The notes under the pieces are model-generated. The model made no database searches. It was given only the letters and a program-made list of their open reading frames with translations, and was not told the origin of the DNA. The position numbers and the translations under genes are program-made. A stretch of 21,361 bases of DNA from a virus: positions 1 through 21,361 of the IMG/VR virus record IMGVR_UViG_3300013285_000094; one strand, written 5' to 3'. Every line of letters begins with the position of its first letter. Positions within the stretch are counted from its first letter, which is position 1. Shown here piece after piece: positions 9,271 to 19,086 of this stretch.

Positions 9271-9299
9271 TTGAAAATGTCAGTGGTATCTGATAGGAT
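9271..9299 (+). promoter_or_regulatory. Heptamer promoter P1
   Basis: TTGAAA (9271-9276), spacer of 17 beginning ATGTCAG, then TGA-TAGGAT (-10 at 9294-9299). It drives the four-gene cassette 9355-9927. The upstream gap 9086-9270 is AT-rich and holds only the ATGTCCGAT repeats. Confidence 0.75.
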
Positions 9300-9354
9300 A
9301 CTAGTATCAAGTTAATCAAAGGTTGATTATCTTAAAAAAGAAAGGTGGTTCAAA

Positions 9355-9498
9355 ATGAACTACATTGAAATACATGACCCTATGGTCTTCTCTTCTAATC
9401 CTACTACCTGCCGTAAATGCGGTATGTATGTTCAGTACACTAAAAGTGCTGGAAAGTATGCCTCAGTAAATGGCGTACTATGTGGAGGTAATAAGTAA
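9355..9498 (+). CDS. Small cysteine protein, 47 aa
   Basis: This unrecognised protein has CRKCGMYVQY and a later LCGG, a partial zinc-ribbon pattern. The start has a strong AAAGGTGG eight bases upstream and follows promoter P1. The stop overlaps the next ATG (TAATG), the first of three consecutive one-base overlaps in this cassette. Confidence 0.72.
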   Translation: MNYIEIHDPMVFSSNPTTCRKCGMYVQYTKSAGKYASVNGVLCGGNK

Positions 9499-9674
9499 TG
9501 AATAACTATTATCTAAACTATACTCTCATAGAGAGTGATGGGTCAATGCGTACCTCATCTAATGTACTATTCTTATCCGAAACTAAGGTTAATGATTACC
9601 TTGACCAATTAGCACAAGACAATGTGCTAGTGTATGTAAATGTTACTACTACACCAAGAGAGGTGTTGCTATAA
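9498..9674 (+). CDS. Hypothetical protein, 58 aa
   Basis: I do not recognise this protein. It looks like a small alpha/beta domain (YYLNYTLIESDGSMRTS..., LFLSETKVNDYLDQLAQDN, VLVYVNVTTTP). Both ends overlap neighbours by one base (TAATG). The terminal CTATAATG also forms a possible extended -10. Confidence 0.7.
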   Translation: MNNYYLNYTLIESDGSMRTSSNVLFLSETKVNDYLDQLAQDNVLVYVNVTTTPREVLL

Positions 9675-9826
9675 TGTCATACTCTTATTCTTTTGATCGT
9701 ACCTATGATAAATGGGCTACACTAGCAGACCATTTTGATGTAATGCTAGATGAATTAAACGATACTGATGATGTATCTAATATATTTGTACCCGTAAATG
9801 ATTTTGATGAAATGGAGATACTATAA
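9674..9826 (+). CDS. Hypothetical acidic protein, 50 aa
   Basis: This is an unrecognised, strongly acidic protein (LADHFDVMLDELNDTDDVSN) with no Cys and no membrane segment. It is coupled to both neighbours by TAATG overlaps and has no independent ribosome binding site. Confidence 0.65.
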   Translation: MSYSYSFDRTYDKWATLADHFDVMLDELNDTDDVSNIFVPVNDFDEMEIL

Positions 9827-9927
9827 TGGATAAAGATATATTTGGTTTTGCCAATGCTATACAATTGGATCATCTTAATGATGAGCAGTTAAAGATTGTT
9901 GAAGATATATTTAAAGATTTTAAATAA
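9826..9927 (+). CDS. 33-aa microprotein, paralogue A
   Basis: The sequence begins MDKDIFGFANAIQLDHLND. A paralogue at 12499-12600 is identical at 29 of 33 residues. Nine codons differ only synonymously and four change residues, which indicates selection on the peptide. In both places it is the last gene of its cassette and is started by TAATG overlap. Probably one or two helices; function unknown. Confidence 0.75.
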   Translation: MDKDIFGFANAIQLDHLNDEQLKIVEDIFKDFK

Positions 9928-9935
9928 TAAATAAC

Positions 9936-9967
9936 GGCGTGTTAGCTTGACAACCCGCCCCTTTTTT
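9936..9967 (+). terminator. Rho-independent terminator of cassette 1
   Basis: The stem GGCG-t-GTT / AAC-c-CGCC (9936-9943 / 9952-9959) has one mismatch and an 8-nt loop, followed by CC and six T (9962-9967). Confidence 0.6.
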
Positions 9968-9994
9968 GGGCGCGCCCCCGAGGTCGGGCGTGTC
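9968..9994 (+). ncRNA. GC hairpin element copy 1 (long-loop form)
   Basis: This starts GGGCGCGCC and ends TCGGGCGTGTC. As RNA, GCGCGCCC pairs with GGGCGTGT (two G-U pairs) around the loop CCGAGGTC. It follows the T-run of the terminator, so it is not that terminator's own stem. No TGTGA-N6-TCAC palindrome follows this copy. A DnaA-box-like sequence follows instead. Confidence 0.7.
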
Positions 9995-10003
9995 TGTGGA
10001 TTA
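9995..10003 (-). promoter_or_regulatory. DnaA-box-like sequence
   Basis: TGTGGATTA is the complement of TAATCCACA, one mismatch from the consensus TTATCCACA. It directly abuts GC hairpin copy 1, exactly as another copy abuts hairpin copy 5. Confidence 0.35.
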
Positions 10004-10029
10004 TTGTTTACCTATTGTTCACTTAAGGC

Positions 10030-10041
10030 ATGTCCGATTTG
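10030..10041 (+). repeat. ATGTCCGATTTG repeat
   Basis: This 12-bp copy lies about 20 bp upstream of the heptamer promoter at 10062. It belongs to the intergenic ATGTCCGAT family. Confidence 0.55.
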
Positions 10042-10061
10042 TACATAAATGTCGCACCCAA

Positions 10062-10084
10062 ATGTCAGACCCCCCTGCTATAAT
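10062..10084 (+). promoter_or_regulatory. Heptamer promoter P2
   Basis: ATGTCAG (10062-10068), 10 bp, then TGC-TATAAT (10079-10084). No coding gene lies between it and the next promoter, so it may drive a short RNA. Confidence 0.7.
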
Positions 10085-10090
10085 AGCAAC

Positions 10091-10150
10091 ATAACAAACT
10101 AAATAAAGAAAAAAGTTTTGCGACACACGGCGTGTCGCCTTGATTTTGTC
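10091..10150 (+). ncRNA. Candidate small RNA, about 60 nt
   Basis: This stretch runs from the predicted start point of P2 to a perfect 7-bp hairpin GCGACAC-acggc-GTGTCGC (10120-10138) followed by a T-rich tail. It has an A-rich single-stranded 5' part and no start codon with a usable frame. The tail doubles as the -35 (TTGATT) of the next promoter. Confidence 0.45.
10120..10150 (+). terminator. Hairpin terminator overlapping promoter P3
   Basis: A 7-bp perfect stem with a 5-nt loop is followed by CTTGATTTTG. The T-rich tail is interrupted, so termination may be partial. Confidence 0.5.
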
Positions 10151-10168
10151 AGACCTATCTGCTAGAAT
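10140..10168 (+). promoter_or_regulatory. Heptamer promoter P3
   Basis: TTGATT (10140-10145), 17-bp spacer starting TTGTCAG, then TGC-TAGAAT (10163-10168). This is the only heptamer with T in the first position. It drives 10202-10592. Confidence 0.72.
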
Positions 10169-10201
10169 ACTCGTATTAGAAAATAAAGAAAGGAAGTTAA
10201 A

Positions 10202-10351
10202 ATGACTTCACTAAAAATAAAGGCAATTCGCCTAAACGAAGGTGGCTTTCCTGACCGCCTTGAAACTACTCTGCTTGGTTCAGAGTTAGAAATAAATAAC
10301 CGCCTTGATACCATGGTATCAAATGGCTGGGCTATCTTGGAGACAAGATAG
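10202..10351 (+). CDS. Hypothetical protein, 49 aa
   Basis: I do not recognise this protein. It has a basic start (TSLKIKAIRLNEGG) and a small alpha/beta pattern ending SNGWAILETR. AAAGGAAG precedes the ATG by six bases. It is first in the P3 cassette. Confidence 0.7.
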   Translation: MTSLKIKAIRLNEGGFPDRLETTLLGSELEINNRLDTMVSNGWAILETR

Positions 10352-10353
10352 TC

Positions 10354-10476
10354 ATGGGTTACATTGAAATTTTTAGAATTACAGACGAAGGTGCTGGCTG
10401 GGTAGATTTATCCAAAGCCACACCAGAGGAAAAGCTTGACCTAGAAATAGGTTTATTTCAAGAAGGTGCTTTGTGA
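10354..10476 (+). CDS. 40-aa microprotein, WVDLS family copy A
   Basis: The sequence begins MGYIEIFRITDEGAGWVDLS and ends LFQEGAL. A paralogue at 13103-13225 shares 27 of 40 residues, including WVDLS.ATP.EKL and LFQEGAL, so both are real genes. In both cassettes a short Met-Ser-Val-containing peptide follows. Function is unknown. The TTG-TGA end overlaps a GTG start. Confidence 0.75.
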   Translation: MGYIEIFRITDEGAGWVDLSKATPEEKLDLEIGLFQEGAL

Positions 10477-10592
10477 TTATTCTCACATACATAGTTAGGA
10501 CAATTCTTATCCTAATGTCAGTGCCTTGCGTTATACTAATGACTCTAATGATACAAAACTTAGCAAATAAGGAAAACTGGCATGAGAACTAA
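10473..10592 (+). CDS. Small membrane peptide, 39 aa
   Basis: A GTG start overlaps the previous stop (GTGA). Residues about 2-28 are hydrophobic (IILTYIVRTILILMSV..., VILMTLMI), forming one membrane segment, and the tail is polar. An embedded heptamer promoter (10515-10537) constrains the codons for MSVPCVI. No family is recognised. A role in the membrane is inferred from hydrophobicity only. Confidence 0.55.
   Translation: MIILTYIVRTILILMSVPCVILMTLMIQNLANKENWHEN
10515..10537 (+). promoter_or_regulatory. Heptamer promoter P4 inside a coding gene
   Basis: ATGTCAG (10515-10521), 10 bp, then CGT-TATACT (10532-10537). Read in frame the heptamer encodes Met-Ser-Val. It would drive the signal-peptide gene at 10582. 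The -35 region (ATCCTA) is weak. Confidence 0.6.
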
Positions 10593-10725
10593 AATAATTA
10601 TACTAGCGTTTATGCTTTCACTAATTCCCGCCACTTCTAATGCAAGCAGAGGAACTTTCAAGCCACCTCATGCTTCAATTATTTGGCACAAACAAAATAT
10701 GCTTAAAAATAAGCATACTTTCTAA
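10582..10725 (+). CDS. Small secreted protein, 47 aa
   Basis: Residues 1-21 are a near-ideal Sec signal peptide: MRTK, then IIILAFMLSLIP, then ATSNA as cleavage site. The mature part is about 26 residues, basic and without Cys (SRGTFKPPHASIIWHKQNML and onward). AAGGAAAA lies upstream, inside the end of the previous gene. It is not a recognised family. An exported peptide from an infected cell could act on the envelope, on superinfecting phage or on neighbours. These roles are inference. Confidence 0.65.
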   Translation: MRTKIIILAFMLSLIPATSNASRGTFKPPHASIIWHKQNMLKNKHTF

Positions 10726-10733
10726 AAAAATAG

Positions 10734-10756
10734 ATGTCAGTGGTCTAGTGTAGACT
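10734..10756 (+). promoter_or_regulatory. Heptamer promoter P5
   Basis: ATGTCAG (10734-10740), 10 bp, then TAGACT (10751-10756). It lies nine bases after the stop of the secreted-peptide gene and drives 10790 and 11044. Confidence 0.65.
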
Positions 10757-10789
10757 ACTACTAACAACAACAAGGAAAGAAGGACAAAA

Positions 10790-10957
10790 ATGACAGTAGG
10801 AACTAAGACTTACCAAATTGGTGACTTATTCACAACGCAACGCAGTAATGTAACAGGAACAATCACGGAGATTATTCCCGTTACAGAAAATCGCACACGT
10901 GTAAAGTTGTCACTAGAAAATGGCGAGTATCGCTGGACAACAGTAACAATCAAGTAA
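10790..10957 (+). CDS. YQ(I/V)GDLFTT small protein, copy 1 (55 aa)
   Basis: This small beta-rich protein has TYQIGDLFTTQRSNVTGTI in the first half and RTRVKLSLENGEYRW in the second, suggesting a compact SH3-like or KOW-like barrel. The next gene is a diverged tandem paralogue, which supports coding. GAAAGAAGG precedes the ATG by seven bases. The specific function is unknown. Confidence 0.75.
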   Translation: MTVGTKTYQIGDLFTTQRSNVTGTITEIIPVTENRTRVKLSLENGEYRWTTVTIK

Positions 10958-11043
10958 TTTTCGGAAATACCGAAACGACCTGAGCCAAGTCGCAAAACTG
11001 GCTCACCAACCCAACAAGAAAAAAAGAAAAGGAAAACTAACAA

Positions 11044-11214
11044 ATGACACTATCAGGATACACATACCAAGTAGGCGATTTATTTACAACCTCAAAAACA
11101 GGTGTAACAGGTCGTATAAATGGTTTCTCTCCAATATCAAATAAAGTAACACGTGTAGGATTAACTCTAGCAAATGGATCAAGACGTTTCGCTATGGTAA
11201 AAACTTCAAAGTAA
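11044..11214 (+). CDS. YQ(I/V)GDLFTT small protein, copy 2 (56 aa)
   Basis: This is a tandem paralogue of the gene at 10790, sharing YQ-GDLFTT, VTG-I and TRV-L-L-NG-R. AAAGGAAAA lies upstream. The 86-base gap between the two holds two small inverted repeats (TTTCGG/CCGAAA and GAGCCA/TGGCTC). No promoter is seen in that gap, so both are probably on the P5 transcript. Confidence 0.75.
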   Translation: MTLSGYTYQVGDLFTTSKTGVTGRINGFSPISNKVTRVGLTLANGSRRFAMVKTSK

Positions 11215-11216
11215 TC

Positions 11217-11225
11217 TGCTATAAT
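11217..11225 (+). promoter_or_regulatory. Extended -10 promoter P6
   Basis: TGCTATAAT starts three bases after the stop of the previous gene. It has no -35 match and no heptamer. The start point would fall at about 11231-11232, the first base of the folded leader. Confidence 0.5.
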
Positions 11226-11230
11226 AATTT

Positions 11231-11284
11231 GGCGGGTCGTGAGTGATAACAGGTAAATATCTAAGTAGCCTTAGATTACCCGCC
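11231..11284 (+). ncRNA. Structured 5' leader, 54 nt
   Basis: The outer stem GGCGGGT / ACCCGCC (11231-11237 / 11278-11284) encloses a perfect hairpin ATCTAAG-tagc-CTTAGAT (11259-11276) and an unpaired purine-rich stretch of about 21 nt. It begins at the predicted transcript start and ends 28 bases before the start codon. It could be a stabilising 5' cap structure or a small regulatory leader. It matches no riboswitch I know. Confidence 0.5.
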
Positions 11285-11312
11285 TTAACTAATGAAAAGG
11301 ATAGAAAATAAA

Positions 11313-11492
11313 ATGATGACAAGAAAAGACTATGTAGCAACCGCAGAAATTCTAAACTCTTATGGCTCAGACATGAAGTTAGAAGTGTTTGAAGATTTAG
11401 TAAATGACTTTACTGAAATGTTTGCGGAAGATAACGAACGTTTTGACTCAGATAGATTTTGGGAAGAGTGTTTCAAAAATCTTAACGTATAA
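11313..11492 (+). CDS. MTRKDYV-family small protein, copy A (59 aa)
   Basis: The start MMTRKDYVATAEIL and the later DLVNDFTEMFAEDNERFDSD match a small helical family I remember as common on actinobacterial phages and plasmids (M-RKDY...ADNPxFDxxRF). The paralogue at 12305 has the same architecture and fixes the start at the double ATG. An in-frame ATG at 11292 is less likely. AAAGGA lies 11 bases upstream. The biochemical function of the family is unknown to me. It is alone in its cassette. Confidence 0.8.
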   Translation: MMTRKDYVATAEILNSYGSDMKLEVFEDLVNDFTEMFAEDNERFDSDRFWEECFKNLNV

Positions 11493-11501
11493 ATAAATAA
11501 A

Positions 11502-11537
11502 AATCCCGCAGCTTATGTTGCGGGATTAGTTTAATTT
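11502..11537 (+). terminator. Terminator of the 11313 cassette
   Basis: A perfect 9-bp stem AATCCCGCA / TGCGGGATT (11502-11510 / 11519-11527) with an 8-nt loop is followed by a T-rich tail. Confidence 0.7.
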
Positions 11538-11550
11538 TCAACTAATTTTT

Positions 11551-11573
11551 GGGCGCGCCGCGTCGGGCGTGTC
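11551..11573 (+). ncRNA. GC hairpin element copy 2 (short-loop form)
   Basis: GGGCGCGCC...GGGCGTGTC has the loop GCGTCG replacing the longer loop of copy 1, while the stem GCGCGCC / GGCGTGT is kept. It follows a T-run directly. Confidence 0.7.
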
Positions 11574-11614
11574 GCCATTTATGTGAGATTACTCACAAAG
11601 CCCACGCTCCATAT
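11552..11614 (+). repeat. 63-bp perfect repeat, copy 1
   Basis: This is identical over 63 bp to 12639-12701 and includes the GC hairpin, the TGTGA-N6-TCACA palindrome and a GCCCACGCTCC tail. Such identity between flanks that otherwise differ suggests recent duplication or recombination of the whole regulatory block. Confidence 0.9.
11582..11597. promoter_or_regulatory. CRP/GlxR-like operator
   Basis: TGTGAGATTACTCACA is a perfect TGTGA-N6-TCACA palindrome, the consensus of CRP-family sites including actinobacterial GlxR. It lies about 40 bp upstream of the -35 at 11638. Confidence 0.6.
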
Positions 11615-11637
11615 AATGAGACTACTCACCAGTATAC

Positions 11638-11666
11638 TTGATAGTAGCGACTTTATGTGTTATACT
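11638..11666 (+). promoter_or_regulatory. Promoter P7
   Basis: TTGATA (11638-11643), 17 bp, TGT-TATACT (11661-11666). The heptamer is absent although the -35, spacing and extended -10 are like the others. It drives 11701-12600. Confidence 0.72.
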
Positions 11667-11700
11667 TCCAGTATTAGAAAATAAAGAAAGGTGGTCTCAA

Positions 11701-11895
11701 ATGACTACACTAAATAAAATAAATATAGGTAAGGCTCTCCAAATTTCGGGAGCATTAGAAAATCGTATCATACACGATGTAAATAATGGTGGGGCAAAAT
11801 CCACTTATGGTTTAGATTTTGGTCAGCGTAAAATGCTTATCAAATTTATATTCTCCGCTAATTTCCCTAAGTGTGAATGTGTATGGTGTATCTAA
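11701..11895 (+). CDS. Hypothetical protein with CxCxxC tail, 64 aa
   Basis: I do not recognise this protein. It has a helical N-terminal part (KINIGKALQISGALENRII), a central FGQRKMLIKFIFSANF and a C-terminal CECVWCI, a possible metal or redox site. The ATG at 11701 has AAAGGTGG eight bases upstream. An in-frame TTG at 11638 coincides with the -35 and is rejected. Confidence 0.72.
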   Translation: MTTLNKINIGKALQISGALENRIIHDVNNGGAKSTYGLDFGQRKMLIKFIFSANFPKCECVWCI

Positions 11896-12089
11896 TGTCT
11901 ATAACACTAATAAATAAACTTTTTGTAGGTTGTCTCTTTATTTGGAAAAATGAAAATTATCTAATAAATGAAATTACTAATGTAAGTGATAAACACGATA
12001 TCGTAAATGCCCGTATCGTAAATGCTAAGGGTGTTACCCTTGCCCTAACCTGTACACAAAACGAATTCAAAGAAAGCGTGGTTAAATAA
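11895..12089 (+). CDS. Hypothetical protein, 64 aa
   Basis: This is an unrecognised small beta-rich protein (LFIWKNENYLINEITNVSD, then HDIVNARIVNAKGVTLALT). The ATG at 11895 overlaps the previous TAA (TAATG). An in-frame ATG at 11877 lies inside the previous gene. Confidence 0.7.
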   Translation: MSITLINKLFVGCLFIWKNENYLINEITNVSDKHDIVNARIVNAKGVTLALTCTQNEFKESVVK

Positions 12090-12305
12090 ATGAATAAAAA
12101 TACAATTAAATTTGGCGGGCTAGGTCAAGAAATTTCTTGTTATTGCCCTGTGTGTTCTCGTAAAATGACCCATTGGGCAGTTGCTACATTGGGAACAGGT
12201 AGCACAATGAAATATGAATGGAAATGTGAGCCTTGCGAATTATCTCTAAAGTCTGACCAAAATGGTTATGCTCACCTACTAACAGAAATGGAATACTATA
12301 AATAA
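12090..12305 (+). CDS. Zinc-ribbon microprotein, 71 aa
   Basis: Two Cys pairs, CPVC (with a preceding CYC) and CEPC, are separated by about 30 residues and flanked by aromatic residues (MKYEWKCEPC), the classic form of a small zinc ribbon. Such proteins bind nucleic acid or act as protein adaptors. The role here is unknown. It follows the upstream stop directly and ends in a TAATG overlap. Confidence 0.75.
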   Translation: MNKNTIKFGGLGQEISCYCPVCSRKMTHWAVATLGTGSTMKYEWKCEPCELSLKSDQNGYAHLLTEMEYYK

Positions 12306-12499
12306 TGATGACTAGAAAAGACTATGTAAAAGTGGCAAATATTTTGAATGATATTGCTAAACCTAATATGGATATGATACCGTTTGAGGATTTGGTAACT
12401 GAGTTTGCAGATATGTTTTTTGCAGACAATCCAAATTTCTCTCCCGCCAAATTTGAAATGGCTTGCTATGGCAACGATGAAATGGCGGATGTAAAATAA
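12305..12499 (+). CDS. MTRKDYV-family small protein, copy B (64 aa)
   Basis: This is a paralogue of 11313: MMTRKDYVKVANIL, then FEDLVTEFADMFFADNPNFSPAKFEMAC. The DNP-F----F---C ending is the more typical form of the family. It is coupled by TAATG to genes on both sides, and the downstream partner is a paralogue of the 33-residue gene of cassette 1. The arrangement suggests mixing of gene modules between cassettes. Confidence 0.8.
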   Translation: MMTRKDYVKVANILNDIAKPNMDMIPFEDLVTEFADMFFADNPNFSPAKFEMACYGNDEMADVK

Positions 12500-12600
12500 T
12501 GGAAAAAGATATTTTTGGATTTGCTGATGCAATTCAAATTGATCATCTTAACGATGAACAATTAAAAATTGTTGAAAATATATTTAAAGATTTTAAATAA
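12499..12600 (+). CDS. 33-aa microprotein, paralogue B
   Basis: This peptide differs from that at 9826-9927 at only four residues, while nine other codons differ silently. It begins MEKDIFGFADAIQIDHLND. TAATG overlap supplies the start. It is again last in its cassette and directly followed by a terminator and a GC hairpin. Confidence 0.75.
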   Translation: MEKDIFGFADAIQIDHLNDEQLKIVENIFKDFK

Positions 12601-12610
12601 ATAAAAAAAA

Positions 12611-12638
12611 TTTGCAGTGTAACAGCTGCAAAATTTTT
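12611..12638 (+). terminator. Terminator of the 11701-12600 cassette
   Basis: The stem TTTGCAG / CTGCAAA (12611-12617 / 12626-12632) with an 8-nt loop is followed by ATTTTT. Confidence 0.7.
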
Positions 12639-12660
12639 GGCGCGCCGCGTCGGGCGTGTC
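12639..12660 (+). ncRNA. GC hairpin element copy 3 (short-loop form)
   Basis: This has the same short-loop sequence as copy 2 with one fewer leading G. It follows the terminator T-run without a gap. Confidence 0.7.
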
Positions 12661-12668
12661 GCCATTTA

Positions 12669-12684
12669 TGTGAGATTACTCACA
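12669..12684. promoter_or_regulatory. CRP/GlxR-like operator
   Basis: TGTGAGATTACTCACA is identical to the site at 11582. It lies about 40 bp upstream of the -35 at 12725. Confidence 0.6.
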
Positions 12685-12724
12685 AAGCCCACGCTCCATA
12701 TGTTGAGACAAATGCCCTTAAAAG

Positions 12725-12753
12725 TTGAAAATGTCAGTGCAATCTGTTATACT
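12725..12753 (+). promoter_or_regulatory. Heptamer promoter P8
   Basis: TTGAAA (12725-12730), ATGTCAG at the start of the 17-bp spacer, then TGT-TATACT (12748-12753). This is one of the best matches to the full consensus. Confidence 0.78.
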
Positions 12754-12783
12754 TACGGCATACCGAAAGAAAGAAGGTCTTAA

Positions 12784-12891
12784 ATGAACCTAGATGAATT
12801 CAAGGCACACGTTCTTGAAACCCGCCGTCAGTCTGCCATGTCAGTGGCTACTGCTATAATTAACTCAACAAAGAAAGAAGGTAGCAAATAA
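12784..12891 (+). CDS. 35-aa peptide carrying an internal promoter and RBS
   Basis: The sequence starts MNLDEFKAHVLETRRQ, continues SAMSVATAII and ends NSTKKEGSK. Its codons for MSVATAII are also the heptamer and TATAAT of promoter P9, and those for KKEG are the AAGAAAGAAGG ribosome binding site of the next gene. It may therefore be a real small basic peptide or a leader that survives because the regulatory sequence happens to be open in this frame. AGAAGG precedes its own ATG. Confidence 0.55.
   Translation: MNLDEFKAHVLETRRQSAMSVATAIINSTKKEGSK
12838..12860 (+). promoter_or_regulatory. Heptamer promoter P9 inside a coding gene
   Basis: ATGTCAG (12838-12844), 10 bp, TGC-TATAAT (12855-12860). 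It drives 12891 onward independently of P8. Confidence 0.68.
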
Positions 12892-13103
12892 TGCTAATCT
12901 CAGAAGCCTTAGAAGGCAAATTCCACCGCTCATATAATAACCGTCGTGAAGGTATAATCCAATTCGCAGAATTGCGAAAAGATATTTATCGCTTAAATGA
13001 AGGCGTTTATGCTTTCGCTTGTAAAGTTCGCCCACACTGGAACGGAACTGGTTTTCCAAAACCTGATTTTTATACAACCGTTTATGTAAAAGCAGATGAA
13101 TAA
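12891..13103 (+). CDS. Hypothetical protein, 70 aa
   Basis: I do not recognise this protein. Mixed alpha/beta, basic in the first half (GKFHRSYNNRREGIIQF), then YAFACKVRPHWNGTG and FYTTVYVKADE. Its start overlaps the previous stop by one base (TAATG) and AAGAAGG lies within the previous gene. The next gene again starts at TAATG. Confidence 0.72.
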   Translation: MLISEALEGKFHRSYNNRREGIIQFAELRKDIYRLNEGVYAFACKVRPHWNGTGFPKPDFYTTVYVKADE

Positions 13104-13225
13104 TGGGATTTATTGAATTCGCTCGTATAGATGAAAACGGTGTAGAGTGGGTAGATTTATCTAATGCCACTCCCGCCGAAAAATTAAATATTGAAATTGC
13201 TCTCTTTCAAGAGGGGGCACTTTAA
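13103..13225 (+). CDS. 40-aa microprotein, WVDLS family copy B
   Basis: This is a paralogue of 10354-10476 (27 of 40 residues identical), starting MGFIEFARIDENGVEWVDLS and ending LFQEGAL. The conserved C-terminus suggests a binding surface there. Overlaps of one base (TAATG) occur at both ends. Confidence 0.75.
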   Translation: MGFIEFARIDENGVEWVDLSNATPAEKLNIEIALFQEGAL

Positions 13226-13332
13226 TGGAGATTTTTATTTGTAATAATTGCTCAACGCTGGCAACAATGTCAGTGCTGGGTGATACAATACAACTAAATA
13301 AATGTAAATGTATGTCAAGAAAGGACAACTAA
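13225..13332 (+). CDS. 35-aa cysteine peptide with internal promoter
   Basis: Cysteines occur as CNNC near the start and CKC near the end, a minimal possible zinc knuckle. Codons for TMSVLGDTI form promoter P10. Coding is supported by TAATG overlaps on both sides and by its position after the WVDLS gene, where the other cassette also has a short peptide containing Met-Ser-Val. Confidence 0.55.
   Translation: MEIFICNNCSTLATMSVLGDTIQLNKCKCMSRKDN
13267..13289 (+). promoter_or_regulatory. Heptamer promoter P10 inside a coding gene
   Basis: ATGTCAG (13267-13273), 10 bp, TGA-TACAAT (13284-13289). It is in frame as Met-Ser-Val and drives 13332 onward. Confidence 0.65.
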
Positions 13333-13892: not shown

Positions 13893-13908
13893 TGTGATAT
13901 TTATCACT
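13893..13908. promoter_or_regulatory. CRP/GlxR-like operator
   Basis: TGTGATATTTATCACT matches TGTGA-N6-TCAC. Its centre is about 31 bp upstream of the -35 at 13929. Confidence 0.55.
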
Positions 13909-13928: not shown

Positions 13929-13957
13929 TTGATAATGTCAGTGCAATGTGTTATTAT
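13929..13957 (+). promoter_or_regulatory. Heptamer promoter P11
   Basis: TTGATA (13929-13934), ATGTCAG spacer start, then TGT-TATTAT (13952-13957). It drives 13984-14279. Confidence 0.75.
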
Positions 13958-14184: not shown

Positions 14185-14279
14185 TGAATTTTATCTCTAA
14201 TCTATTCCCCACACCTTTATCATTATATATTTATGTAATGATAGTTACCACTGCCGTCTGCTGGATTGCCAGCAGATGA
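14184..14279 (+). CDS. Small membrane peptide, 31 aa
   Basis: Residues about 10-28 (TPLSLYIYVMIVTTAVCWIA) form one hydrophobic segment and the end is SR. It is coupled by TAATG to the upstream acidic protein. Its last codons form an 8-bp hairpin. It could anchor its partner to the membrane. That is inference. Confidence 0.5.
   Translation: MNFISNLFPTPLSLYIYVMIVTTAVCWIASR
14257..14276 (+). terminator. Hairpin at the end of the 14184 gene
   Basis: TCTGCTGG-attg-CCAGCAGA is an 8-bp perfect stem with a tetraloop but no T-run. The next promoter's heptamer starts three bases later, so it may insulate or attenuate. Confidence 0.45.
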
Positions 14280-14301
14280 TGTCAGTGCCCCCTGCTATAA
14301 T
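14279..14301 (+). promoter_or_regulatory. Heptamer promoter P12
   Basis: ATGTCAG (14279-14285), 10 bp, TGC-TATAAT (14296-14301). The -35 region overlaps the preceding hairpin. It drives 14332-15153. Confidence 0.72.
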
Positions 14302-15211: not shown

Positions 15212-15231
15212 TGTGGATTACGTGTGGATAA
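15212..15231 (-). promoter_or_regulatory. Pair of DnaA-box-like sequences
   Basis: TGTGGATTA (15212-15220) and TGTGGATAA (15223-15231) lie 11 bp apart. The second is the exact complement of the DnaA consensus TTATCCACA. The first repeats the sequence next to hairpin copy 1. Confidence 0.45.
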
Positions 15232-15239
15232 CTTTACGA

Positions 15240-15255
15240 TGTGAGATTTATCACA
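15240..15255. promoter_or_regulatory. CRP/GlxR-like operator
   Basis: TGTGAGATTTATCACA is a perfect TGTGA-N6-TCACA site preceded by ACGA, as at 16527 and 18551. Confidence 0.6.
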
Positions 15256-15260
15256 TGGAA

Positions 15261-15272
15261 CAAATCGGGCAT
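15261..15272 (-). repeat. Inverted ATGTCCGATTTG-type repeat
   Basis: CAAATCGGGCAT is one base from the complement of the repeat. It sits between the operator and promoter P13. Confidence 0.45.
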
Positions 15273-15314
15273 TACGGACAAATCTTTCTTTGTTTTATTA
15301 TTTAAGATGGACAG

Positions 15315-15337
15315 ATGTCAGCCCTGTATGTTAAAAT
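15315..15337 (+). promoter_or_regulatory. Heptamer promoter P13
   Basis: ATGTCAG (15315-15321), 10 bp, TGT-TAAAAT (15332-15337), with TGGACA just upstream as -35. It drives the DUF932 gene. Confidence 0.7.
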
Positions 15338-15364
15338 AAGACTAACTAACGAAAGGAAATAAAA

Positions 15365-16402
15365 ATGACAAACGTCATGTCACAGGTTCACCGCTCAGAA
15401 GTTGAGTCTGGTGAAGTTTCACTTGCTGTCAGCACACGCACAACACCTGCGTGGCACAGTTTTGCAAATAAAATCTTCACAAAAGATGAAGAAGTCACAA
15501 CACAAAAAATGCTAGATGGTGCTAAACTATCAAATTGGAACGTTGCTCTTGAGCCTGTTTCAAATCTATTAGCAGATAATTACAATCAAGTAGGCGAGAA
15601 CTTTCTCGTTGTTCGTGACAATCCTTACACATTAGGGCAAAAAGATGTTTTGTCTGTTGTAGGTTCACGCTATAAGACAGTACAAAATGAAGAACTATTT
15701 TCTTTTGCTGATAACCTTCATGATGGCAATTCTGATGTTTATTGGGAGTCTGCTGGTTCTCTTAAAAGTGGTCGTGTGGTGTTTGGAACAATGTCTGTTC
15801 CCCGCACTATTGTTCTTGACCCAAAAGGCGTTGCTGATGAAACAAAACTTTATCTAATCGTGTGGACTTCACATGATGGTTCTGTTGCTGTTCAATCTGC
15901 TATCACTCCCGTTCGTGTTATGTGTCAAAATACACTTAATTTCGCAATGAAGCAAGCAAAGCAATCTTTCAAAATCCGTCACACACAAACTGTTGATGGA
16001 AAAATTGTTGCTGCTCGTGAGGCTCTAGGTTTAACTTTTGCCTATGCTGATGAGTTTGAAAAGCAGGCACAGGAACTTTTCAAAATTGAAGTTTCAAATG
16101 CTAAGTTTTCTGAAATCATTAACAAGATGTACCCTAAGCCTGAGTCTGATAAAAAAGGTTCAATTAAAAAGTGGGAGAACAAAGTTGTTCTTCTTGATGA
16201 GTTGTATCATAACTCACCTACCAACACAAACATTAAAGGCACAGCATGGGGCGTTGTAAATGCTCTGACTGAACGCCTAGATTATTACCGCACTGCTCGC
16301 AAGGCAGGCGATAGTTTGATGGCAGGAGCAAGTGGTTTTGACCCAGTTGTTACCGCAGAAAAAAATAAAATTGTTAAGCAAGTATTGGCTCTTGCTAAAT
16401 AA
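15365..16402 (+). CDS. DUF932 (TIGR03299-type) phage/plasmid-like protein
   Basis: This 345-residue protein shows the DUF932 pattern: early PAWHSFANKI, then FLVVRDNPY, VVGSRYKTVQNEELFSFAD, SAGSLKSGRVVFGTMSVP, LYLIVWTSHDGSVAVQSAITPVRVMCQNTL across residues about 160-192, and helical IRHTQTV...AREALGLTF. Proteins of this family are frequent on phages and plasmids of many bacteria, especially actinobacteria. Their biochemical role is not settled. AAAGGAAAT lies upstream of the ATG. It is the only large gene in the accessory region, and stands alone between its own promoter and a perfect terminator, so its expression is controlled separately. Confidence 0.88.
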   Translation: MTNVMSQVHRSEVESGEVSLAVSTRTTPAWHSFANKIFTKDEEVTTQKMLDGAKLSNWNVALEPVSNLLADNYNQVGENFLVVRDNPYTLGQKDVLSVVGSRYKTVQNEELFSFADNLHDGNSDVYWESAGSLKSGRVVFGTMSVPRTIVLDPKGVADETKLYLIVWTSHDGSVAVQSAITPVRVMCQNTLNFAMKQAKQSFKIRHTQTVDGKIVAAREALGLTFAYADEFEKQAQELFKIEVSNAKFSEIINKMYPKPESDKKGSIKKWENKVVLLDELYHNSPTNTNIKGTAWGVVNALTERLDYYRTARKAGDSLMAGASGFDPVVTAEKNKIVKQVLALAK

Positions 16403-16414
16403 TTAAAATAAACT

Positions 16415-16447
16415 TAGCGGGGGCAAAAGCCCCCGCTATTTTTTTTG
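16415..16447 (+). terminator. Strong rho-independent terminator
   Basis: A 10-bp perfect stem TAGCGGGGGC / GCCCCCGCTA with an AAAA loop is followed by eight T. Confidence 0.92.
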
Positions 16448-16464
16448 TTTAAATTTTAATTAAT

Positions 16465-16488
16465 ATTTATACAGCTAAATGTATAAAT
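16465..16488 (+). other. AT-rich hairpin before GC element copy 6
   Basis: ATTTATAC-agctaaat-GTATAAAT is an 8-bp perfect stem just after the strong terminator. It corresponds in position to the hairpin at 13833 before copy 4. Confidence 0.45.
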
Positions 16489-16492
16489 ATGC

Positions 16493-16519
16493 GGGCGCGC
16501 CCCCGAGGTCGGGCGTGTC
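16493..16519 (+). ncRNA. GC hairpin element copy 6 (long-loop form)
   Basis: The 27-nt long-loop form is identical to copies 1, 4 and 5. The strong terminator upstream shows that this element is not needed as the primary terminator. Confidence 0.7.
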
Positions 16520-16526
16520 GTTACGA

Positions 16527-16542
16527 TGTGATTAAAATCACC
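16527..16542. promoter_or_regulatory. CRP/GlxR-like operator
   Basis: TGTGATTAAAATCACC matches TGTGA-N6-TCAC, preceded by TTACGA. It lies upstream of the tRNA promoter. Confidence 0.5.
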
Positions 16543-16563
16543 TTAAGTTTTGCGGCGTGTCAT

Positions 16564-16592
16564 TTGATTTGATAGATTTAATTTAGTATAAT
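16564..16592 (+). promoter_or_regulatory. tRNA promoter
   Basis: TTGATT (16564-16569), 17 bp, TATAAT (16587-16592). Transcription would start near 16599, just before the mature tRNA 5' end. The heptamer is absent. Confidence 0.75.
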
Positions 16593-16601
16593 TGCTAACT
16601 T

Positions 16602-16675
16602 GACCTCATAGAGCAATTGGTTAGCTCGTCGCCCTGTCACGGCGGAGGTTGCGGGTTCAAGTCCCGTTGGGGTCG
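16602..16675 (+). tRNA. tRNA-Asp (GTC)
   Basis: A full cloverleaf can be drawn: acceptor GACCTCA / TGGGGTC (one G-U), D arm GAGC-aattggtta-GCTC, anticodon arm TCGCC-CTGTCAC-GGCGG with anticodon GTC, variable AGGTT, T arm GCGGG-TTCAAGT-CCCGT, discriminator G. CCA is not encoded and must be added by the host. Phage tRNAs are thought to support translation when codon use differs from the host or when host tRNA is degraded. It has its own promoter and is followed at once by promoter P14. Confidence 0.95.
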
Positions 16676-16681
16676 CTGGTA

Positions 16682-16704
16682 ATGTCAGAGGTATCTGATA
16701 GAAT
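16682..16704 (+). promoter_or_regulatory. Heptamer promoter P14
   Basis: ATGTCAG (16682-16688), 10 bp, TGA-TAGAAT (16699-16704), only six bases after the tRNA. The -35 region overlaps the tRNA 3' end. Confidence 0.72.
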
Positions 16705-16726
16705 ACCATCAAAGAAAGGAAATGAA

Positions 16727-16906
16727 ATGACAACCTGGAACAAATGGGATTACTTGTGTACCAATTGTGATGCCAACATTGAAATGACTATTAAATCTAA
16801 TGGAAATCTTCATAAAGATAATTGTCCAAAATGTGATTTTGCAATGACATTAATGTCAGTTGTAGATGCTACAATACCTGATGACAAAAAAGAAGGCGGT
16901 ATCTAA
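16727..16906 (+). CDS. Zinc-ribbon protein, 59 aa
   Basis: YLCTNCDANIEM and DNCPKCDFAM place two CxxC pairs about 20 residues apart, a textbook small zinc ribbon. The ATG at 16727 has AAAGGAAAT upstream. A longer in-frame start inside the tRNA is rejected. Its final third (LMSVVDATIP) doubles as promoter P15, and the end AAGAAGGCGG gives the next ribosome binding site. One-base overlap with the next gene. Confidence 0.78.
   Translation: MTTWNKWDYLCTNCDANIEMTIKSNGNLHKDNCPKCDFAMTLMSVVDATIPDDKKEGGI
16853..16875 (+). promoter_or_regulatory. Heptamer promoter P15 inside a coding gene
   Basis: ATGTCAG (16853-16859), 10 bp, TGC-TACAAT (16870-16875), in frame as Met-Ser-Val. It drives 16906. Confidence 0.6.
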
Positions 16907-17133
16907 TGGCAGTAATAACGCTACAAGTTCCTAACCAATCTCAAATGGGGTATGGATTAGGTAAAGCAATTCAGTATGGCGTTGAGTATGAAGTTAAAGA
17001 TAACTTACAAGTTGAATTAACATCTGCTGACGAAATAAGATTGGCAAAGATGATGGTCGCATTTCAAGGTAAGTTAGTTAGTTCTAACATACAAAAAAAT
17101 GTGCGTGTTGATTTGCCAAAACACGAAGCCTAG
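16906..17133 (+). CDS. Hypothetical protein, 75 aa
   Basis: I do not recognise this protein. It starts with a beta strand (MAVITLQVPN), continues KAIQYGVEYEVKDNLQVELT, then a helix ADEIRLAKMMVAFQGK and a last strand KNVRVDLP. A small alpha/beta fold is likely. The start overlaps the previous TAA, with AAGAAGG six bases upstream. Confidence 0.73.
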   Translation: MAVITLQVPNQSQMGYGLGKAIQYGVEYEVKDNLQVELTSADEIRLAKMMVAFQGKLVSSNIQKNVRVDLPKHEA

Positions 17134-17142
17134 TGTTATACT
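17113..17142 (+). promoter_or_regulatory. Promoter P16
   Basis: TTGCCA (17113-17118), 18 bp, TGT-TATACT (17137-17142). No heptamer. The -35 lies in the end of the previous gene. It drives 17187. Confidence 0.6.
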
Positions 17143-17186
17143 AGGACACCCCCAAATAACCCAACAACAGAAAAGGAAAAGAAACA

Positions 17187-17606
17187 ATGGCAAGTAGAGC
17201 AATCTCCGTAAAAGTACCAACAGTTAAGGTAATCAAGGCTTTGGAAACAAAGTTGGAAAAAGTAAAAGCAGATTGGTTAAGCCAAGAAGCAAATGAAACA
17301 AGGTATCAAAAGTCTTTAGAAGCACATAAAAAAGTAATGATTGACTTTGCTATCGCAAACATCAAATCAGCAAACAACTTCCGCACAAGTCACAGGGCTT
17401 GGGATAATAGAATTAACATTGACTTTGACGTTTATACAAATGGTGTTGATTTTCCAAAAGAGCCAACACGGGATTTTGTACAAATGTATCAACACAACTA
17501 TGACAGCACTTTAGAGGAAATTAACAATGCCCTCAACATCTTAAAGATGACAGATGAGGAAACAGTTAATGCTTCCACTATGAAGTCAATCGCACAGTAT
17601 CTATAA
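17187..17606 (+). CDS. Hypothetical helical protein, 139 aa
   Basis: This is an unrecognised protein. Residues about 8-60 are a long charged helical stretch (KVIKALETKLEKVKADWLSQ, ETRYQKSLEAHKKVMID) that could be a coiled coil. Residues about 62-100 are mixed (NNFRTSHRAWDNRINIDFDV) and the rest helical (YDSTLEEINNALNIL). AAAAGGAAA lies upstream of the ATG. It is alone in its unit, between P16 and the hairpin at 17618. Confidence 0.8.
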   Translation: MASRAISVKVPTVKVIKALETKLEKVKADWLSQEANETRYQKSLEAHKKVMIDFAIANIKSANNFRTSHRAWDNRINIDFDVYTNGVDFPKEPTRDFVQMYQHNYDSTLEEINNALNILKMTDEETVNASTMKSIAQYL

Positions 17607-17617
17607 ATAAATAATCT

Positions 17618-17653
17618 TGGGCGGGGCTCTAACTCCTTTCTTTACCCCGCCCA
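17618..17653 (+). terminator. GC-rich hairpin after the 17187 gene
   Basis: TGGGCGGGG / CCCCGCCCA is a 9-bp perfect stem with an 18-nt loop, but no T-run follows. It is likely a transcript end or insulator. Confidence 0.55.
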
Positions 17654-17662
17654 CCTTCCCAC

Positions 17663-17691
17663 TTGACGAAAAATAAATAAAGCGATAGGAT
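17663..17691 (+). promoter_or_regulatory. Promoter P17, leaderless type
   Basis: TTGACG (17663-17668), 17 bp, TAGGAT (17686-17691). The ATG at 17698 starts seven bases after the -10, which is where transcription should begin. Confidence 0.65.
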
Positions 17692-17697
17692 AGCCAA

Positions 17698-17766
17698 ATG
17701 AACGCAATAATAGTGGTTTTTGTATTACTATCACTCGTAGCAGTACTATTAGGAGGTATGTTGTAA
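17698..17766 (+). CDS. Leaderless 22-aa membrane peptide
   Basis: The sequence is MNAIIVVFVLLSLVAVLLGG followed by ML. It is a single hydrophobic helix. There is no room for a Shine-Dalgarno between the predicted start point and the ATG, so it is probably translated from a leaderless mRNA. Its codons for LGGM contain AGGAGG, the ribosome binding site of the next gene, and the ends overlap as TAATG. It may be a leader peptide or a membrane microprotein. Confidence 0.52.
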   Translation: MNAIIVVFVLLSLVAVLLGGML

Positions 17767-18161
17767 TGGGAGCACGAATTAACTTTGTATTCAAAACAAA
17801 CTTAGATGAACCTTATTTAGTTCTTTATTCACACTGGGGCGAAACCGAGTGGCGTAAAGATTTAGCACAGGCTTTAGAGTTCGCTAAACCCCGCTGGACA
17901 GATGACTCTTATTGCCTTCGCATAATCATTGACCAATTAACTAAAGATGGTCGGGACTTAGAAACAGGCTTTGGATTATTTTTAGCCAAGCAAGATGAAT
18001 TAACATTTCTTGACTATCCCGTAATCATTGACACACAAGCACAATGGGTTGAAGATGAAGGTCATAAACACTCATGGAGTTCATTTATTGAATACCAACA
18101 AGAAATGTTAGAGTATCACAATCCAATCCCAGCAGAGGTAAATGACTATGTTGGGAACTGA
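17766..18161 (+). CDS. Conserved actinophage-type protein, 131 aa
   Basis: The start MGARINFVFKTN and the segment LVLYSHWGETEWRKDLAQAL resemble a protein family I remember from Streptomyces and mycobacterial phages and prophages, with unknown function. It continues RWTDDSYCLRIIIDQL, ETGFGLFL and YPVIIDTQAQWVEDEGHKHS. It is an alpha/beta protein without a recognisable active site. AGGAGG lies ten bases upstream inside the 22-residue gene. It overlaps the next gene by 14 bases. Confidence 0.78.
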   Translation: MGARINFVFKTNLDEPYLVLYSHWGETEWRKDLAQALEFAKPRWTDDSYCLRIIIDQLTKDGRDLETGFGLFLAKQDELTFLDYPVIIDTQAQWVEDEGHKHSWSSFIEYQQEMLEYHNPIPAEVNDYVGN

Positions 18162-18258
18162 AAAGTGGACATTGCTTTGCTATGATTGTTCCGCAGAATA
18201 TAAAGCAGACATAGCATCAGAACGCTGGACATGTAAGGAGTGTGGCGGTGACAACTAA
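18148..18258 (+). CDS. Zinc-ribbon microprotein, 36 aa
   Basis: LLCYDCSAEYKAD and WTCKECGGDN give two CxxC pairs 18 residues apart in a 36-residue peptide, a minimal zinc ribbon. AGAGG precedes the ATG by nine bases inside the previous gene. It overlaps the next gene by 11 bases. Confidence 0.7.
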   Translation: MLGTEKWTLLCYDCSAEYKADIASERWTCKECGGDN

Positions 18259-18397
18259 ATACAAACCTTATACAATTGACGAGCTTGTCACAATGATCTA
18301 TGAAGATAACCTGGAACATTTTGATACCGCAGAACATGATTGTGATTGTTATTTGCACATCACACTTAAAACTATTGTAGATTATTGGGAACAATAA
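18248..18397 (+). CDS. Acidic hypothetical protein, 49 aa
   Basis: A GTG start has AGGAG eight bases upstream. The sequence is MTTKYKPYTIDELVTMIYED, then an acidic stretch with CDCYLHITL and a final IVDYWEQ. It is unrecognised and likely helical. The HDCDC segment might bind metal. It is the last gene before the folded region at 18400. Confidence 0.62.
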   Translation: MTTKYKPYTIDELVTMIYEDNLEHFDTAEHDCDCYLHITLKTIVDYWEQ

Positions 18398-18399
18398 AT

Positions 18400-18478
18400 A
18401 ATTGGTCAAATGCGGGTAAGAATGTGTGGGGCATCAGTAGCATAACTGATTAGGTTTGATCCTTACACATCACCAATT
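18400..18478 (+). ncRNA. Folded tRNA-like element
   Basis: The outer stem AATTGGT / ACCAATT (18400-18406 / 18472-18478) encloses ATGTGT / ACACAT (18422-18427 / 18465-18470), which encloses a perfect hairpin ATCAGT-agcata-ACTGAT (18433-18450) and a small arm AGG-TTTGAT-CCT (18452-18463) resembling a T arm. The inner part ends ACACATC-ACCA like a tRNA 3' end, but there is no D arm and no normal anticodon loop. It could be a decayed tRNA, a tRNA mimic or a 3' end structure. Confidence 0.45.
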
Positions 18479-18511
18479 GACAAAACGTGGCGGGTAGGCG
18501 CGGAAAAGGTA

Positions 18512-18523
18512 CAAATCGGACAT
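18512..18523 (-). repeat. Inverted ATGTCCGATTTG repeat
   Basis: CAAATCGGACAT is the exact complement of the 12-bp repeat at 9255, 10030 and 20971. It lies upstream of the promoter at 18587. Confidence 0.55.
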
Positions 18524-18550
18524 TAAGAACATTATAAAAATTCTCCACGA

Positions 18551-18566
18551 TGTGGGCAAAATCACA
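18551..18566. promoter_or_regulatory. CRP/GlxR-like operator (one mismatch)
   Basis: TGTGGGCAAAATCACA is preceded by ACGA. It sits about 20 bp upstream of the -35, suited to activation or repression of P18. Confidence 0.5.
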
Positions 18567-18586
18567 TTTACGATGTCATTTTTTTA

Positions 18587-18615
18587 TTGACAGGCATATG
18601 AAAAAATGATAGAAT
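18587..18615 (+). promoter_or_regulatory. Promoter P18, leaderless type
   Basis: TTGACA (18587-18592), 17 bp, TGA-TAGAAT (18610-18615). The ATG at 18622 begins seven bases after the -10. No heptamer. Confidence 0.78.
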
Positions 18616-18621
18616 CAACCC

Positions 18622-18840
18622 ATGGAAACATTAAGAATATATGAAATAGATTACTCAGTCTCACCTGGTGGAATAAATTCATTTGAAGTCTATAATGATT
18701 TAGATAATGATTATGAATCTCCATATCCACTATATGAGACACCAAATTTAATAGATGCTTGTAATTGGGCATATAATCAAGGATGTAATTTTACTGTATA
18801 TACTCTAGCACAAAATGAATTGAAGTATTCTAATGCTTGA
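18622..18840 (+). CDS. Hypothetical acidic protein, 72 aa (leaderless)
   Basis: This is an unrecognised alpha/beta protein: METLRIYEIDYSVSPGGINS, an acidic YNDLDNDYESPYP, then NLIDACNWAYNQGCNFTVYT. The ATG coincides with the predicted start point and no Shine-Dalgarno exists upstream, so translation should be leaderless. It overlaps the next gene by 8 bases. Confidence 0.75.
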   Translation: METLRIYEIDYSVSPGGINSFEVYNDLDNDYESPYPLYETPNLIDACNWAYNQGCNFTVYTLAQNELKYSNA

Positions 18841-19060
18841 TATTATGGAAGGATTATATGGGGATGCTTTCTCTTCAGTCCCCGCCGTTTACGAAGATAG
18901 AACTTTTACCCGTGAACAAATCCAAGATGCTAAACTAATTGGATATACAGAAGATGATCATGTCATTTTACAGCTATTAGACAAATCCATTACGATTGTC
19001 TATTCTATAGATATAGACTGGTTGCTTTACGATGAAGCCACAGACAAGATATCTGCTTGA
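18833..19060 (+). CDS. Hypothetical protein, 75 aa
   Basis: I do not recognise this protein. It is acidic, with a beta-rich second half (KLIGYTEDDHVILQLLDKSI, TIVYSIDIDWLLYDEA). The ATG lies inside the previous gene. An alternative ATG (MEGLYGD) 12 bases downstream is also possible. The TGA stop is part of the -35 of the next promoter. Confidence 0.7.
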   Translation: MLDIMEGLYGDAFSSVPAVYEDRTFTREQIQDAKLIGYTEDDHVILQLLDKSITIVYSIDIDWLLYDEATDKISA

Positions 19061-19086
19061 CCAATGTCAGTGCCAACTGATACAAT
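19057..19086 (+). promoter_or_regulatory. Heptamer promoter P19
   Basis: TTGACC (19057-19062), 18 bp, with ATGTCAG at 19064-19070, then TGA-TACAAT (19081-19086). It drives the last cassette, 19114-20842. Confidence 0.75.

Follow-up and report, generated by a model that had tools for sequence, protein, structure and literature searches.

Actinobacteria activate DNA-damage genes from RecA-independent promoters (RecA-NDp; for example, recA P1 of Mycobacterium) that share the consensus tTGTCRgtg-8 nt-TannnT (PMC5656591). This element is read at -26 by the host activator PafBC, which displaces sigma domain 4 from the -35 region in a process termed 'sigma adaptation' that replaces -35 recognition (PMC11804915; PMC10693628). 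A promoter class with the form TGTC-12 nt-TANNNT, which is HrdB-independent and enriched in DNA replication and repair genes, has been described in Streptomyces lividans (PMC6742748), although only the TGTC core is reported for these chromosomal promoters. Among phages, the middle promoters of T4 work in a comparable way, in that a sigma-appropriating element near -30, the MotA box, replaces the -35 and acts with an extended -10, but its sequence and position differ. Here we describe a family of viruses of aquatic Actinobacteria that place an element matching the RecA-NDp consensus in core and spacing in about 8–18 promoters of one module of small genes. The promoter type is therefore known, whereas its use as a phage takeover array appears to be new; full-text searches returned no report of such promoters in phages, as far as titles and abstracts of open-licence papers showed.

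The stretch of DNA that we analysed (the window) comprises 21,361 nucleotides of the IMG/VR virus record IMGVR_UViG_3300013285_000094 (positions 1 to 21,361). A preliminary description had reported that 14 promoters in it share an (A/T)TGTCAG heptamer fixed 10 bp upstream of a TAnnnT -10, and this observation is correct in every site: all 14 are present on the + strand, whereas dinucleotide shuffles of the window give 0.10 ± 0.30 sites (maximum 1). They are located at 9277..9299 (ATGTCAG-N10-TAGGAT, with a -35 TTGAAA at 9271), 10062..10084 (ATGTCAG-N10-TATAAT), 10146..10168 (TTGTCAG-N10-TAGAAT, -35 TTGATT at 10140), 10515..10537 (ATGTCAG-N10-TATACT), 10734..10756 (ATGTCAG-N10-TAGACT), 12731..12753 (ATGTCAG-N10-TATACT, -35 TTGAAA at 12725), 12838..12860 (ATGTCAG-N10-TATAAT), 13267..13289 (ATGTCAG-N10-TACAAT), 13935..13957 (ATGTCAG-N10-TATTAT, -35 TTGATA at 13929), 14279..14301 (ATGTCAG-N10-TATAAT), 15315..15337 (ATGTCAG-N10-TAAAAT), 16682..16704 (ATGTCAG-N10-TAGAAT), 16853..16875 (ATGTCAG-N10-TACAAT) and 19064..19086 (ATGTCAG-N10-TACAAT). 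Thirteen of the fourteen start with A, as had been noted, 12 carry the TGn extension, and 13 are followed within about 45–80 bp by a Shine-Dalgarno-like run and a start codon. NTGTCAG occurs 15 times in the window and only CTGTCAG at 15426, which we attribute to chance, lacks the -10. The promoter at 15315 precedes a conserved module gene (15365..16402, + strand; phrog_1221/DUF932-type) that is 49–85% identical in all nine large relatives and is present in the terminal repeats of Stanwilliamsviridae.

Some details required correction. The preliminary description placed the heptamer in the first seven bases of a 17-bp spacer wherever a -35 is visible, but this applies to a minority, because TTG at a 17- or 18-bp spacing is found in only 5 of 14 promoters. 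Across 443 sites the element extends beyond the heptamer to aaWTGTCRGt(G/C)(G/C), with no general -35 information and no -10-like signal upstream that would indicate a divergent promoter, and its sixth base is A or G. The refined form is WTGTCRGTg-N8-TAnnnT. The window module also contains two heptamer-less promoters with a -35, both on the + strand: TTGATA-N17-TATACT with TGn at 11638..11666, and TTGATT-N17-TATAAT at 16564..16592, in front of tRNA-Asp (gtc; 16602..16676, + strand).

Across 2.9 million viral contigs, a strict 18-base pattern occurs in 111 stretches with a 10-bp gap, in 1 with 11 bp and in 0 with 9 bp; a further count gave 1,274 sites at N10 against 15 and 12 at the neighbouring spacings. 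The window is a fragment of a family of actinophages of ~110–116 kb that is distantly related to the Streptomyces Stanwilliamsviridae. Each near-complete genome has one module of 9–14 kb with about 8–18 such promoters and almost none elsewhere: in nine genomes, 98 sites lie inside the modules and 5 outside, and of the extended -10 promoters elsewhere 3 have the element and 180 lack it. The terminal repeats of the Stanwilliamsviridae LilMartin, EGole and Wofford are of the same module type (a DUF932 gene and many small monocistronic genes), and some of their promoters carry the TGTC core in register, although many keep a TTG -35, only a minority carry TGTC and very few carry the full heptamer. 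In the cultured Streptomyces phages LilMartin and EGole, TGTC-N12-TA occurs 9 and 8 times, respectively, against 0 and 3 at N11. The element is also found in an unrelated actinophage contig of 54% GC (G038), in which GTC is in register in 14 of 20 G.TATAAT promoters and which shares no terminase, polymerase or HTH core genes with the family; this points to a host-encoded reader.

We then compared the phage promoters with the RecA-NDp type. The TGTCR core is present in 14 of 14 window sites, and the purine is reproduced independently among strict extended -10 sites, of which 422 of 442 have TGTCAG (395) or TGTCGG (27), with every other pair occurring at most 5 times. The gap of 8 nt to TAnnnT is likewise found in 14 of 14. 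The TGTC core and its register are also identical to those of the S. lividans promoter class. At the weakly conserved flanks the picture is mixed and does not settle membership either way: GTG is found in 9 of 14 window sites, and TGG or TGC follows the heptamer in most relatives, but the first base is T in only 1 of 14 and A in 13. The heptamer is centred at -26 if the -10 hexamer spans -12 to -7. Consistent with the lack of a required -35, the element and the -35 trade off, because among promoters anchored by a CRP site TTG is present at -35 in 18 of 28 without the heptamer and in 66 of 285 with it (p=1.4e-5). The element is thus not superimposed on ordinary -35/-10 promoters but replaces the -35 in most of them. 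The phage promoters differ from the host ones in being clustered within a module of small phage genes rather than repair genes, in usually having a TGn extended -10 and, in one sub-group, in carrying a class I CRP/GlxR site.

About a third of the promoters carry this additional site, a TGTGA-N6-TCACA palindrome of the CRP/GlxR type, which was found 284 times in 970 upstream regions, whereas gaps other than N6 gave 0 or 1. The centres pile up at about -63.5, -73.5 and -83.5, with a further peak at -68.5, so the sites lie upstream of the promoter on the same helix face, at class I positions. Four of the 14 window promoters have such a site, with centres given relative to the inferred start: 10472..10487 (TGTGATTATTCTCACA, -64.5) before the 10515 promoter, 12669..12684 (TGTGAGATTACTCACA, -83.5) before that at 12731, 13893..13908 (TGTGATATTTATCACT, -63.5) before that at 13935 and 15240..15255 (TGTGAGATTTATCACA, -96.5) before that at 15315. 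The heptamer-less promoters are also preceded by such sites, at 11582..11597 (TGTGAGATTACTCACA, centre about -83.5 from the inferred start) and, with one imperfect arm, at 16527..16542 (TGTGATTAAAATCACC) before the tRNA promoter; all six sites are on the + strand.

Taken together, these data lead us to propose, with high confidence, that the heptamer is the -26 element of a PafBC-type DNA-damage promoter, which the phage has placed in front of most genes and small operons of a module of small, probably early host-takeover genes. In the mechanism that we infer, the constitutively present PafB–PafC heterodimer of the host, activated by single-stranded DNA (ssDNA), inserts between promoter DNA and sigma-A domain 4; PafB reads WTGTCRG at -29 to -23, PafC holds sigma-A domain 4 and sigma-A still reads the extended -10, so that no -35 hexamer would be needed. 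In one large sub-group, a host CRP/GlxR-type regulator bound at class I positions probably adds activation. What the sequences themselves establish is the element, its exact register, its restriction to the module, the absence of a conserved -35 and the trade-off with it, the match to the published host consensus and the absence of a WYL protein from the phages tested; PafBC binding, dependence on damage or ssDNA, early timing and a role in takeover are inferred from these, as transcript starts were not mapped, PafBC dependence was not assayed, and the host was not identified or examined for pafBC. Some evidence does not fit easily. The strict phage pattern gave 5 hits in 257 Gb of genomes, about the number expected by chance and none of them actinobacterial, but it also demands TGG, TGn and a perfect TATAAT, which host promoters probably seldom combine, and the scan was too strict to count as evidence that host PafBC promoters are absent. 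A study of S. venezuelae reported that the PafBC motif of M. smegmatis did not seem to be conserved there (PMC9380542), and PafBC is thought to need ssDNA, which must somehow be present at the right time after infection.

The preliminary description reasoned that something must read a conserved spacer element and offered a phage-made factor, an altered sigma factor or a host regulator; this interpretation is partly supported, in that the evidence favours the host regulator and not the other two. A phage-encoded DNA-binding factor acting as MotA does in T4 is unlikely, although candidates exist: a WhiB-like protein is in every near-complete family genome, a 160-aa HTH_17 protein and a ~48-aa sigma-4-like HTH protein are core in all nine genomes and in LilMartin, and the motif cluster is otherwise almost confined to one phage family. 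However, G038 uses the element but has neither HTH protein, WhiB proteins act at sigma domain 4 near the -35 and not at -26, the consensus matches that of host PafBC, and in cultured relatives the element sits in the terminal repeats, where early genes would be read before any phage factor is made. No WYL domain was found in any of 21 phage records, and profile searches of 16 records gave no Sigma70_r4 match above cut-off, the sub-threshold matches being mostly to the ~48-aa HTH protein. No search for MotA or AsiA was run; the sequence differs from the MotA box. A WhiA-dependent promoter is not supported, because the heptamer gives GACAT or GACAA on the other strand rather than GACAC and no HTH_WhiA match above cut-off was found in the phages; the protein behind a weak hit at 17187–17606 of the window was modelled as a long helix plus a beta hairpin and is not an HTH.

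A different host reader is also unlikely but has some support, as ClgR has been reported to recognize the P1 motif and to affect the same DNA-damage genes (cited in PMC5656591), and SiwR, another WYL activator, also works at -26 (PMC10693628). Against this, later work maps PafBC itself to the motif and shows the -26 contact by cryo-EM, and the promoter of SiwR has a different conserved triplet, GGA. That the heptamer is the operator of a phage repressor that shuts off the module later in infection seems very unlikely: it lies between the -35 and -10 positions, where operators are common, and is restricted to one module, but repression does not need a distance to the -10 that is exact to the base over more than a thousand sites, and compensation for a missing -35 indicates a positive role. 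Least likely is an intrinsic preference of RNA polymerase without a dedicated reader. Although the element sits within a core promoter, polymerase makes no known specific contacts in the spacer upstream of -15 (PMC2613000), and 180 other extended -10 promoters of the same phages lack the element.

A more speculative possibility, which we consider somewhat less likely than not, is that the phages use the ssDNA-sensing activator of the host as an infection switch. In this view, ssDNA arising from phage entry, replication or the breakdown of host DNA would activate PafBC, which would fire all takeover promoters together in a feed-forward loop, and in one sub-group a cAMP/CRP-type signal would be added, so that takeover would depend on both DNA stress and nutrient state. 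If the PafBC reading is true, a widespread kind of freshwater actinophage, and cultured Streptomyces phages, run takeover genes on the RecA-independent DNA-damage response of the host. This would explain why these promoters lack a -35, would give a computable signature for finding early genes, with likely anti-defence and host-takeover functions, in uncultured actinophages, and would link phage take-off to DNA stress and to antibiotics that break DNA.

We first asked whether the fourteen proposed promoters are present in the window and found that each of them exists as it had been described: [A/T]TGTCAG followed by exactly 10 bp and TAnnnT, all on the + strand. Shuffles of the window gave a mean of 0.10 matches and a maximum of 1. 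The observation made in the preliminary description therefore holds. An equal frequency of the heptamer inside unrelated coding sequence without a -10 had been named beforehand as grounds for rejecting it, but of the 15 NTGTCAG in the window only one lacks the -10. Twelve of the sites have a TGn extension and five have a TTG at a -35 position. Thirteen are followed within about 45-80 bp by a Shine-Dalgarno-like run and a start codon, so by every sequence criterion they look like promoters of individual small genes or short operons.

The window is a 21,361-bp IMG/VR fragment whose NrdJ and DUF932-type proteins are closest, among named phages, to those of Streptomyces phages of Stanwilliamsviridae, at about 66% and 53% identity, respectively. 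The first of these, a B12-dependent class II ribonucleotide reductase (2251-4182, - strand), is 66% identical to that of Streptomyces phage Mildred21, whereas three of nine relatives carry a second, distant type (about 29% identical). On the same strand, positions 1-1860 encode a very long collagen-like GXQGXQG repeat protein, probably a tail fibre. Small module genes and their upstream regions are duplicated inside the window (10790-10957 and 11044-11214; 11292-11492 and 12305-12499; repeats D4, D6 and D7). Next, we looked for the element in related phages, as had been proposed in advance as a check. A scan of viral contigs with a 14-base version found at least 120 stretches, and near-complete relatives of 108-116 kb have one block with 9-18 sites. 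Nine such contigs of 86-116 kb were read; they share terminase, polymerase and capsid-region genes, and the window shares many genes with the relative G011 and with others. All contigs of at least 85 kb with four or more sites that were tested hold the family terminase. Eleven of twelve further contigs with sites but no terminase hold the DUF932 gene of the module at 51-79% identity, and 153 of 156 loci with three or more sites hold at least three family ORFs.

The weight matrix of 443 distinct sites reads aaWTGTCRGt(G/C)(G/C)...TGnTAtAAT, with no information at the -35 position. The distance from the heptamer to the -10 is exact, with 1274 sites at N10 against 15 and 12 at N9 and N11 in the fetched loci. 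In a control not biased by retrieval, the strict 18-base pattern found 111 stretches with N10, 1 with N11 and 0 with N9 in the whole viral collection. When a strict extended -10 was used as the anchor, the two bases after TGTC were AG in 395 sites, GG in 27 and any other pair in at most 5. In nine genomes, TGTCNG-N10-TA..[AC]T occurs 98 times inside the modules (105 kb together) and 5 times outside. Other intergenic extended -10 promoters of the same genomes lack the heptamer (3 with, 180 without; module, 22 with and 10 without). The element thus marks one gene class and is not a general need of the polymerase, which, according to a review, makes no known specific contacts in the spacer upstream of -15 (PMC2613000).

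The element acts like a -35 substitute. TTG at a 17-bp spacing occurs in 109 of 970 heptamer promoters, more often in sub-types with a weaker flank. Because many of these promoters have a TGTGA-N6-TCACA site upstream, that site provides an independent anchor: among promoters found through it, TTG is at the -35 in 18 of 28 without the heptamer and in 66 of 285 with it (p = 1.4e-5, not corrected for relatedness; promoters from related phages are not independent). In the window itself, the two heptamer-less module promoters, at 11638 and 16564, have TTGATA and TTGATT.

The upstream palindromes form a second layer. The 150 bp upstream of 970 heptamer promoters contain 284 TGTGA-N6-TCACA sites, whereas every other gap from N2 to N11 gives 0 or 1. 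Their centres pile up about 63.5, 73.5 and 83.5 bp before the start, which is inferred from the -10, with a smaller peak at -68.5. TGTGA-N6-TCACA is the CRP consensus, shared by the Corynebacterium CRP-type regulator GlxR (PMC5449483), and ten-base periodicity upstream of the promoter is class I geometry. In the nine genomes these sites lie almost only in the modules (41 inside, 1 outside). They are absent from the lineages of relatives G001 and G012 and from the Streptomyces phage LilMartin, so this layer is probably younger than the heptamer. In the window, the promoters at 10515, 12731, 13935 and 15315 have such a site. A GC-rich repeat of unknown function (GGGCGCGCC[CCCGAGGT]CGGGCGTGTC; window positions 9968, 11551, 12639, 13859, 15185 and 16493) recurs in front of several module promoters, usually just upstream of the CRP-type site, and CGACACGC and GCGTGTCG also pile up at fixed distances (-25, -16, -57) from the heptamer in relatives. 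Upstream of the heptamer promoters in relatives (970 regions), DnaA-box-like TTATCCACA (226), GAGCGTCTC at -42/-41 and TGTCCG/CGGACA at -31/-27 are enriched at preferred positions, suggesting further host or phage regulators.

The preliminary description had inferred that something must read this element, whether a phage-made factor, an altered sigma factor or a host regulator; this interpretation is supported in part, with the evidence pointing to the host. Among phage candidates, WhiB is in every near-complete family genome and two small HTH proteins are core. However, contig G038, an unrelated 54% GC actinophage with no terminase, polymerase or HTH homologue of the family, has GTC in exactly this register in 14 of its 20 G.TATAAT promoters. 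These promoters, at 16-34 kb, mostly carry [AT][TC]GTC[AG] in the heptamer register plus a T[GT][TG]AC[AT] -35 at an 18-bp spacing. G038 shares the second type of ribonucleotide reductase, carried by three of the nine relatives, and a conserved 185-amino-acid protein (G003:41716-42273 in the relative G003, with homologues in other relatives). By eye this protein looks like a proteasome-type (Ntn) hydrolase, although no family search was run on it; it is of interest because pafBC sits in the host proteasome locus. The Streptomyces relatives have TGTC-N12-TA[GT]A[AC]T mostly in their terminal repeats: LilMartin 9, EGole 8 and Wofford 5, against 0, 3 and 0 at N11. TGTC peaks at the same register in 38 early-region promoters of four such phages, 21 of which have a TTG -35. 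Rhodococcus, Gordonia, Mycobacterium, Arthrobacter and Microbacterium phages in the same search do not show it. Together, these results point to a reader supplied by the host.

A host reader of such an element is known. In S. lividans, a promoter class with TGTC 12 nt before TANNNT, independent of the housekeeping sigma factor HrdB, precedes DNA replication and repair genes (PMC6742748). The mycobacterial RecA-independent DNA-damage promoter has the consensus tTGTCRgtg - 8 nt - TannnT (PMC5656591) and is not restricted to mycobacteria (PMC8223512). It is activated by the WYL heterodimer PafBC, whose PafB HTH reads a -26 element while PafC binds sigma-A domain 4, removing the need for a -35 ('sigma adaptation'), and PafBC is switched on by ssDNA (PMC11804915, PMC10693628). 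The phage element matches this consensus in its core letters and, to the base, in its spacing, and no phage record tested encodes a WYL protein. Some points weigh against this assignment. The first base is mostly A, a S. venezuelae study (PMC9380542) did not find the M. smegmatis motif conserved, and ClgR has been reported at the same motif (cited in PMC5656591). The strict pattern was also not found in actinobacterial genomes, although it further demands a TGG flank, TGn and a perfect TATAAT, and those genomes were not scanned with the looser consensus. Outside Actinobacteria, a Leptospiraceae MAG (L181, 2178-2455) has two near-identical copies, 255 bp apart, of a sequence with the strict heptamer/extended -10 pattern.

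The promoter type is already known; an array of it driving a phage module, combined with class I CRP sites, was not found in the papers searched, which were open-licence papers only. What our analysis demonstrates directly is the element, its register, its restriction to one module, its trade-off with the -35, its match to the published host consensus and the CRP-type layer. We infer, in phages whose host was not identified, that PafBC binds the promoters, that their activity depends on ssDNA or damage, that the module is expressed early, given the terminal-repeat position in LilMartin, where the DUF932 gene is duplicated at both ends, and that it has a role in takeover.
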